Assembly: GCF_034479555.1 (NCBI RefSeq) | Contig: NZ_CP140151.1 | Coordinates: 1,426,001 to 1,490,000 of the forward strand | Length of the DNA stretch: 64,000 bases | Source of the DNA: Chromohalobacter canadensis | Lineage (GTDB): Bacteria; Pseudomonadota; Gammaproteobacteria; Pseudomonadales; Halomonadaceae | Direction: 5' to 3' | Shown here: positions 47,627 through 47,980 of the stretch, in pieces | Numbering within the stretch: position 1 is the first letter of the stretch | Layout of the letters: the number at the start of each line of letters is the position of its first letter | Translations under genes and position numbers: made by a program | Notes under the pieces: generated by a model | Databases searched by the model: none | Told to the model about the DNA's origin: nothing | Seen by the model: only the letters and a program-made list of their open reading frames with translations

Positions 47627-47697
47627 GTCAGAATCCGCGCCCCGGAGAACGGGGCGACAACAATAAATACAACCGACAGGTTTCTATCCGCTCCACC
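47627..47697 (-). ncRNA. CreR-like crRNA-like element (pseudo-repeat, 21-nt pseudo-spacer, pseudo-repeat)
   Basis: Minus strand, 5' to 3': GGTGGAGCGGATAGAAAC (47697-47680), whose last twelve bases equal the 3' end (crRNA handle) of the array repeat; then the 21-nt pseudo-spacer 47679-47659, starting CTGTCGGTTGTATTTAT; then a 32-nt degenerate I-C repeat (47658-47627), which begins GTCGCCCCG, has a 7-bp stem, and ends GCGGATTCTGAC. The pseudo-spacer matches 15 of 17 positions at 47955-47971, beside a TTC PAM and over the predicted operon promoter. This is the plan of cas-regulating RNAs (CreR), which guide Cascade to repress cas genes. The upstream pseudo-repeat has lost its stem, so how the RNA's 5' end forms is unclear. 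Confidence 0.65.
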
Positions 47698-47878
47698 ATC
47701 CAAACCAGCTCATAAAAATGCCAAGGCCCGAAATGGATAGCGAGACCCAAAGACCAACACGCTTAACGGGCGCCTCAAGCCGCAATCTCGCACCACCCCA
47801 TTCAGCAGCCAACAGCAAGAGCCCATTTCGAATGGAACACAGGAATCTAAAGCTTCTTGGGGGCTGCTCATGATCCAT
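47684..47878 (-). CDS. Possible small membrane protein between cas3 and cas5
   Basis: 64 residues from the ATG at 47878 (an in-frame start at 47905 is also possible). The C-terminal third is a hydrophobic helix (VSLSISGLGIFMSWFGWW). Its TAG stop lies inside the handle of the crRNA-like element. The ribosome-binding site is weak and I know no homologue. It may be a real small gene carried in the leader of the Cascade operon or simply an open frame. Confidence 0.3.
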   Translation of the reverse strand: MDHEQPPRSFRFLCSIRNGLLLLAAEWGGARLRLEAPVKRVGLWVSLSISGLGIFMSWFGWWSG

Positions 47879-47951
47879 AGGAACGACCTGTAGCGATCCG
47901 CTCAACGTTGGCTTCGTGAACAGTCTATGTCTCCTTATCTTTTCAAATCAA

Positions 47952-47980
47952 TTCCTATCTGTTGTATTTATCAAATTATA
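47952..47980. promoter_or_regulatory. Predicted promoter and pseudo-spacer target of the cas5-8-7-4-1-2 operon
   Basis: Plus strand: TTC at 47952-47954, then CTATCTGTTGTATTTAT at 47955-47971, which differs from the pseudo-spacer only at positions 3 and 6 of 17. Position 3 would be a G-T wobble, and position 6 is one of the bases flipped out in Cascade. On the minus strand a TATAAT lies at 47980-47975, three bases upstream of the target, so the target would cover the transcription start. No good -35 is seen. Confidence 0.55.

Follow-up and report, generated by a model that had tools for sequence, protein, structure and literature searches.

The gap between cas3 and cas5 of a type I-C CRISPR locus in Chromohalobacter canadensis holds a short crRNA-like gene, and the question that it raises is which promoter the encoded guide would control. 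An earlier note on this DNA read the gene as a CreR-like guide with which Cascade represses its own operon. Here, the whole stretch of DNA that was analysed, 64,000 nucleotides long, is called the window. CreTA stands for Cascade-repressed toxin-antitoxin, and we consider it likely that the guide (47627-47691) and a putative membrane-toxin gene beside it (47684-47878) form a CreTA-type module in this type I-C locus.

The type I-C locus and its cas3-cas5 gap

The minus strand of the window carries a complete locus with cas3, cas5c, cas8c, cas7c, cas4, cas1, cas2 and an array, as annotated by PADLOC, and this content assigns it to type I-C. The array has 81 exact 33-nt repeats (36614-42092) with spacers of 33-36 nt, except for one 101-nt interval. 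The cas3-cas5 gap is 357 nt long and contains, in the direction of the cas genes, the target and its PAM (47971-47952), a predicted promoter, a 64-aa ORF, the handle, a pseudo-spacer and a degenerate repeat (to 47627). The features are as follows.

47971..50196, minus strand: cas3 (PADLOC Cas3c, E 1.6e-228; also in the ORF list); its stop codon borders the target
47955..47971, plus strand: target (protospacer) of the guide
47952..47954, plus strand: TTC, PAM of the target
47946..47951, minus strand: predicted -35, TTGATT, which adjoins the PAM
47922..47927, minus strand: predicted -10, TAGACT, at a spacing of 18
47684..47878, minus strand: small ORF, 64 aa, putative Cascade-repressed membrane toxin
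47680..47691, minus strand: crRNA 5' handle GCGGATAGAAAC, the 12 nt left of the first pseudo-repeat, an exact copy of the 3' end of the array repeat
47659..47679, minus strand: pseudo-spacer (guide), 21 nt, read from the sequence
47627..47658, minus strand: second pseudo-repeat, 32 nt, with GTCGC, the hairpin and GCGGAT kept and GAAAC lost
46945..47613, minus strand: cas5c (PADLOC Cas5c, E 1.6e-76), the first Cascade gene 3' of the guide gene, 13 nt away
44280..46948, minus strand: cas8c and cas7c, the remaining Cascade subunit genes (PADLOC Cas8c, E 2.1e-169; Cas7c, E 2.6e-126)

The earlier note placed three elements in this gap on the cas strand (47627-47691): an exact handle, then a 21-nt pseudo-spacer, then a hairpin repeat in degenerate form. 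This description stands, and the letters and coordinates given for guide and target proved correct when the sequence was read again. The gene lies outside the array and its spacer-like sequence is flanked by two degenerate repeats, as in CreTA modules. The predicted RNA fold of the second pseudo-repeat follows the plan of the array repeat. Guides in type I-C are processed by Cas5c, and the lack of a hairpin in the first pseudo-repeat was counted against the CreTA reading because it bears on the formation of the guide's 5' end by this enzyme. Searches of Rfam with 47500-48150 and of a plasmid collection returned no match.

Elsewhere in the window, two repeats (GGTTCACCCCCGCGCCTGCGGGGAAC) at 52230-52323, which we take to be of a type I-E-like subtype, lie 61 nt apart as an orphan two-repeat array; the Cse1 family has no match across the whole genome. 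This array adjoins the second copy of a duplicated 185-nt stretch (51053-51237 and 52338-52522) that derives from the end of an ORF at 50361-51227.

Distribution of the cassette among relatives

Relatives of cas5 came from two sources. Named genomes supplied the best 80 of 578 confirmed matches, and a match was present in 29 of 275 whole genomes searched from the family, 28 of 390 from the order and 37 of 369 from the class, with slight overlap between the samples. Nineteen loci (L001, L109-L111, L126-L138 and L166-L167) were dropped because their cas5 matches were partial, weak or broken or because they repeated the window. Thirteen duplicates were also dropped, which left 135 distinct cas3-cas5 gaps, the window (L082) among them. 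The lengths of these gaps have two peaks, with 79 gaps of at most 110 nt and 56 longer ones. The handle is present in 37 of the longer gaps and in none of the short ones. The search pattern found no handle in the stretch scanned for the other 19 long gaps; in one of these (L161) the handle lies further upstream, and no TTC match was seen. Guide, target and ORF behave as one cassette that is missing from all 79 short gaps, and guide and small-ORF gene occur together in linkage to the cas operon, as CreTA genes do. On a Cas5 tree of 133 rows, where the 37 rows scored as having the cassette include L161 and leave out L065, presence of the cassette requires 29 changes, compared with a mean of 32.6 and a minimum of 26 after shuffling. 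Judged from this tree, the cassette seems to be gained and lost nearly freely, nearly unlinked from Cas5 descent.

The contents of the 37 handle loci differ. A small ORF is readable in 26 (starts chosen by hand), and five others (L041, L046, L053, L077 and L078) have a strong GGAGGG before a very short ORF in its slot. Four (L120, L145, L146 and L151) carry a different small membrane-type ORF, antisense or divergent, together with a guide and a TTC target. Of the last two, L027 has guide and target and no assignable ORF, and L065 has the handle alone. At L045 a transposase insertion splits cas3 and leaves cas5, cas8c, the ORF and a 14/15 guide match in place; this single case is what would be expected if the cassette required Cascade but could do without Cas3. 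One locus with a broken cas5, L109, has no cassette, again a single case. Broken Cascade genes were also sought as a check on addiction, and no cas8c product shorter than 540 aa was found in the 21 cassette loci or the 56 other loci with data.

Several gaps have features of their own. In L015, L029, L047, L048, L051, L058 and L071 the gap (331-349 nt) lacks a handle and holds another conserved ORF of ~110 aa (VIYMITYPNGKIYVGKDLTNSINYFGS...) that looks GIY-YIG-like by eye; the L051 copy has no Pfam match. The 1686-nt gap of L055 (Achromobacter sp. Marseille-Q4962) has kept the cassette and contains other ORFs, and no full-length cas3 was found in the 4.5 kb upstream. In L022 (Solimonas soli) the toxin-type ORF is apparently frame-disrupted and the guide belongs to the more weakly pairing ones, which would fit decay of the guide after toxin loss (one case). 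L068 (Caballeronia telluris) lacks a cassette in its gap; an orphan handle and its guide lie 5' of cas3, at about 1605 and 2024 on the minus strand. The first 11 nt of this guide match a TTC-flanked site ~80-170 nt before the cas3 start, and by its sequence it is a possible true CreR in type I-C.

Pairing of the guide with its target

Over 47955-47971, directly 3' of TTC, 15 of 17 positions agree with the pseudo-spacer; the mismatches are at position 3 (a G-T wobble) and position 6, as the earlier note had it. TTC has been described as the PAM of a type I-C system (PMC8406640); papers with PMC numbers are cited throughout from parts of their text, and such a part of a type I-C structure paper (PMC11417383) contained no PAM or handle terms. 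When TTC was demanded and guide positions 6 and 12 were left free, a genome-wide scan found the target site with one mismatch and two other sites with at most three, namely the guide itself (two) and one further site (three). None of 2000 shuffled guides reached the window's score beside a TTC in its own gap.

An earlier pairing test covered the first 80 loci and the window only; the present comparison takes in all 37 handle loci (36 relatives plus the window). Each guide was compared over its first 17 nt with its own gap, with neither a PAM demanded nor a position masked. The best match adjoins TTC in 30 of the 37 loci, the window included, and in 11 of 740 trials with shuffled guides (20 shuffles per guide). 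It coincides with the PAM-anchored site in 31 of 37; the six in which the expected site was not returned are L022, L055, L065, L081, L092 and L113. Pairing is weaker or gapped in L022, L055, L081 and L113, L065 has no match, and L092 has one extra base at target position 6.

The pattern along the guide was examined in 35 loci with TTC or TTT as the PAM (TTT in L078), leaving out L065 (no match) and L092 (the one-base insertion). Identity is 89-100% at positions 1-5 and 7-11, 37% at position 6, 29% at position 12, 60-83% at positions 13-17 and 14-49% from position 18 on, so that pairing drops at positions 6 and 12 and stops near 17. The score that chose these sites ignored positions 6, 12 and 18, and the dip persists when the choice is unmasked (17 and 16 of 37 at positions 6 and 12, compared with 26-36 elsewhere). 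In Cascade, each sixth base of the guide is unpaired. The observed score was reached by none of 2000 shuffled guides in 28 of the 35 loci and by at most 20 in 34; the exception is L055 with 101. Mismatches showed no clear excess of G-T wobbles (14 of 47 at positions 6 and 12, 17 of 66 at all others).

The earlier note had suggested looking in related cas3-cas5 gaps for guides and targets that covary, and the gaps compared here show such covariation through the pairing scores, the PAM-free matches and the co-changes. Fourteen chosen related pairs, which share members and are not independent, differ by 19 co-changes that preserve the match, 8 changes that affect just the guide and 13 that affect just the target. 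By these sequence comparisons, the guide observation is far beyond chance.

The predicted promoter

A weight-matrix scan, together with the same layout in relatives, predicts a promoter ahead of the small ORF with its -35 directly against the PAM. TAGCCT, TAGGCT or TAAGCT occupies the matching -10 place in L007, L092, L093, L097, L002, L090 and L100. In eight of nine Halomonadaceae-like cassettes the predicted -35 begins 3-4 nt past the first base of the PAM; in L097 the scan picked another site. The predicted -10 ends 26-33 nt 5' of the start codon in 22 of 26 cassettes, and the window, with 43 nt, is an exception. By score the window's promoter is weak to moderate, since 19 of 200 shuffles were as good; 11 of the 26 cassettes have at most 10 of 200. 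A stricter consensus scan of 47550-48150 found neither a promoter nor a terminator. The guide is partly complementary to this promoter region beside the PAM of the subtype, as in CreTA, with the promoter itself predicted only. The target immediately precedes the predicted -35, and Cascade bound there would abut the -35 from its upstream side.

The earlier note had instead taken a TATAAT (47976-47981) just upstream of the target as the promoter of the Cascade operon. This hexamer lies at the 3' end of cas3 and has no good -35 (best score 4.7, compared with 9.5 for the downstream promoter). It is not conserved: eight relatives compared do not keep it at that place, and L007 has TATAAG nearby. 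We have rejected it as a promoter, and the target lies upstream of the likelier promoter and not downstream of one.

The small ORF between target and guide

The small ORF, which is absent from the earlier note, lies between target and guide, and in the window its TAG stop is inside the handle of the guide. A Shine-Dalgarno-like word precedes the ORF in 19 of the 26 readable cases (loose pattern). The ORF ends inside the handle or within 6 nt of it in 22 of 26 cases, and the stop codon itself is inside the handle in 10, the window included. With such spacing, a promoter of the guide's own could hardly be accommodated outside the ORF. Among 18 chosen pairs, dN/dS is 0.08-0.53 in the 13 that could be resolved, and five are saturated at synonymous sites. 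By these ratios, the ORF is under purifying selection in the relatives.

A hydrophobic 17-residue stretch (mean Kyte-Doolittle of at least 1.6) is found in the second half of 23 of the 26 ORFs, at residues 41-57 in the window; L115 and L142 fall slightly below the cut-off, as does L022, whose apparently disrupted frame was left unmended. AlphaFold2, run with a 25-row alignment, predicted three strands (10-37) and a helix (38-62) with a mean pLDDT of 72 and a pTM of 0.35. Based on this stretch and this model, the product is likely a membrane protein with three beta strands and one C-terminal membrane helix, and by analogy with the known modules it is probably a toxin.

The window ORF has no family in Pfam, PHROGs or PADLOC. 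Of eight other small ORFs, three had matches in Pfam, weak and far below the cut-offs, and two had weak matches in PHROGs. A protein search with the 25-row alignment returned 11 small proteins of the same kinds with no informative name, and a PDB fold search gave no match at E of 0.001 or less. None of these searches (Pfam, PHROGs, PADLOC, protein and fold) returned a homologue of known toxin function. A single ancestor for all ORF groups was considered and not adopted: hhalign relates the window group to the L002/L021 group (probability 91), and its probability for the window group and the L069 group is 9.

Proposed mechanism and alternative readings

The layout of guide, target and ORF is the CreTA plan, so the main target is most likely the membrane-toxin gene and not a Cascade promoter. 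This reading is drawn from features of sequence, which are the handle, the pseudo-spacer, the hairpin pseudo-repeat, the PAM, the ~17-nt match that ignores positions 6 and 12, the co-changes and the selection on the ORF. The guide RNA would load into Cascade and keep it on the DNA beside the predicted ORF promoter. Cascade, with its PAM face at the -35, would block RNA polymerase, and the match would be too short to recruit Cas3. The ORF would thereby be kept off while Cascade functions. If Cascade were lost or inhibited by mutation, a transposon or an anti-CRISPR, the promoter would open and the membrane protein would arrest or kill the cell, and the cell would therefore depend on Cascade. 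The transcript of the ORF is probably also the source of the guide, because the ORF runs up to or into the handle. If transcription from this promoter continued into cas5-cas8c-cas7, the guide would also act as a partial autorepressor of Cascade. A simple scan of 47550-48150 found no terminator between this promoter and cas5, which makes such partial autorepression plausible and preserves part of the earlier note's proposal.

A broader reading, which we hold to be doubtful, would group these loci into a type I-C CreTA superfamily whose toxins are exchangeable and are physically interlocked with their guides through the stop codon in the handle (10 of 26). Excision of the guide by Cas5c would strip the toxin mRNA of its stop, and Cascade would be an antitoxin twice, at the promoter and at the mRNA, in addition to an autorepressor of cas5-cas8c-cas7. 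The exchangeable toxins may include strand-plus-helix membrane proteins of several sequence groups, the antisense or divergent membrane-type protein with ELR..RF(W/Y), and RNA-type mini-ORFs.

The ORF might encode a non-toxic membrane accessory protein that is induced when Cascade is occupied or inhibited, for example a second-line defence or stress protein. The lack of toxin homology agrees with this, and the same genetic plan would suit any gene induced on Cascade failure. We nevertheless think it unlikely, as the modules of a guide and an adjacent repressed gene that have been tested control toxins (PMC12055562, PMC8501985 and PMC10097628, each in part) and in some loci the slot is filled by elements that look like toxic creT RNAs.

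A true CreR, in which the guide autorepresses cas5-cas8c-cas7 from the gap promoter and the ORF is a minor passenger or leader peptide, is what the earlier note proposed. Its crRNA-like guide, PAM and short position-6-tolerant match, of a kind that allows binding without Cas3 cleavage, are retained here; the Cascade promoter as main target is not, because the conserved ORF lies between target and guide, and for this reason CreR is set second to the CreTA-type reading. The promoter-proximal gene is the small ORF, and transcription could continue to cas5: 13 nt separate the guide gene from cas5, the simple scan saw no terminator between target and cas5, and CreR has been described for types I-B, I-E and V-A (PMC13131331, in part). 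However, 26 of the 37 handle loci have a readable ORF of this kind, and purifying selection acts on it. In 19 close relatives without the cassette, cas5 follows cas3 after 26-44 nt, so cas5 seems not to need a gap promoter. Five loci have a mini-ORF of the creT RNA type with a strong Shine-Dalgarno sequence in place of the ORF, which would be superfluous for a pure CreR. Taken together, we judge this alternative to be quite improbable. The weakest alternative, a decayed array remnant with a chance or self-targeting spacer, has the degenerate second repeat in its favour and is in practice refuted, with a negligible probability, by pairing that is kept in tens of loci with the PAM, the every-sixth-base pattern and the co-changes.

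If the ORFs are toxic, as the preferred CreTA-type reading predicts, cells with the cassette would be tied to their own Cascade, and anti-CRISPR proteins would arrest their growth. This would bear on the persistence of type I-C systems and on CRISPR tools based on native type I-C. The cas3-cas5 slot would also provide a simple search rule for Cascade-controlled toxins.

Comparison with known systems

Cascade-repressed toxins are known in types I-B (PMC8501985, PMC9458426), I-F (PMC10097628) and I-E (PMC12055562). A type I-C CreTA was not found in the parts seen of the literature on I-B, I-E and I-F CreTA, CreR and CrePA (PMC8501985, PMC9458426, PMC10097628, PMC12055562, PMC13131331 and PMC12737573), a search that did not extend to the founding papers on CreTA (Science 2021), CreR (2023) and CrePA (2024), or in those of PMC8730458, PMC12948488 and PMC12162490. 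A follow-up study from the first CreTA group predicted several bacterial modules (PMC8501985, in part), so type I-C cases may already be listed there.

The CreR guides (PMC12737573, PMC13131331), as far as the excerpts describe them, are similar in that a short guide match lies near a cas-linked promoter that the effector represses. They differ in that they are generally uncoupled from toxin genes and target the promoter of their own cas operon, whereas here a conserved ORF of toxin-like layout, a putative toxin, is coupled to the guide. CrePA (PMC12737573, in part) shares a protein toxin, putative in our case, that is repressed by Cascade and a CreA guide. Its CreP typically has a KilA-N domain; the window ORF has no Pfam family and is not assigned to CrePA.

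In the excerpts on archaeal I-B CreTA (PMC8501985, PMC9458426), the first degenerate repeat keeps the Cas5-binding nucleotides and the second is largely without them and keeps more of the rest, as here; these modules differ in having tRNA-sequestering RNA toxins and Cas6 processing. The Acinetobacter I-F CreTA, from the text available of PMC10097628, also occupies the gap between cas3 and the first Cascade gene and has two pseudo-repeats. Its 20-nt pseudo-spacer has 17 nucleotides paired, with positions 6, 11 and 18 unpaired. Unlike the window's module, it has an RNA toxin with a 33-bp mini-ORF that is divergent from creA, and its target is downstream of the promoter. The five type I-C loci with mini-ORFs (L041, L046, L053, L077 and L078) resemble this RNA toxin as it is described there.

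The Citrobacter rodentium I-E CreTA (PMC12055562, in part) lies in the gap after cas3 and has a small ORF and a partly matching crRNA-like guide with a PAM at the promoter, in that case at the UP element. The same study determined that Cascade but not cas3 is required and that the toxin must be translated. That ORF is 96 bp long, and the guide is upstream of it on the opposite strand. In the type I-C window, the ORF has 64 aa with predicted strands and a membrane helix, and the guide is downstream of it on the same strand and overlaps its stop codon.
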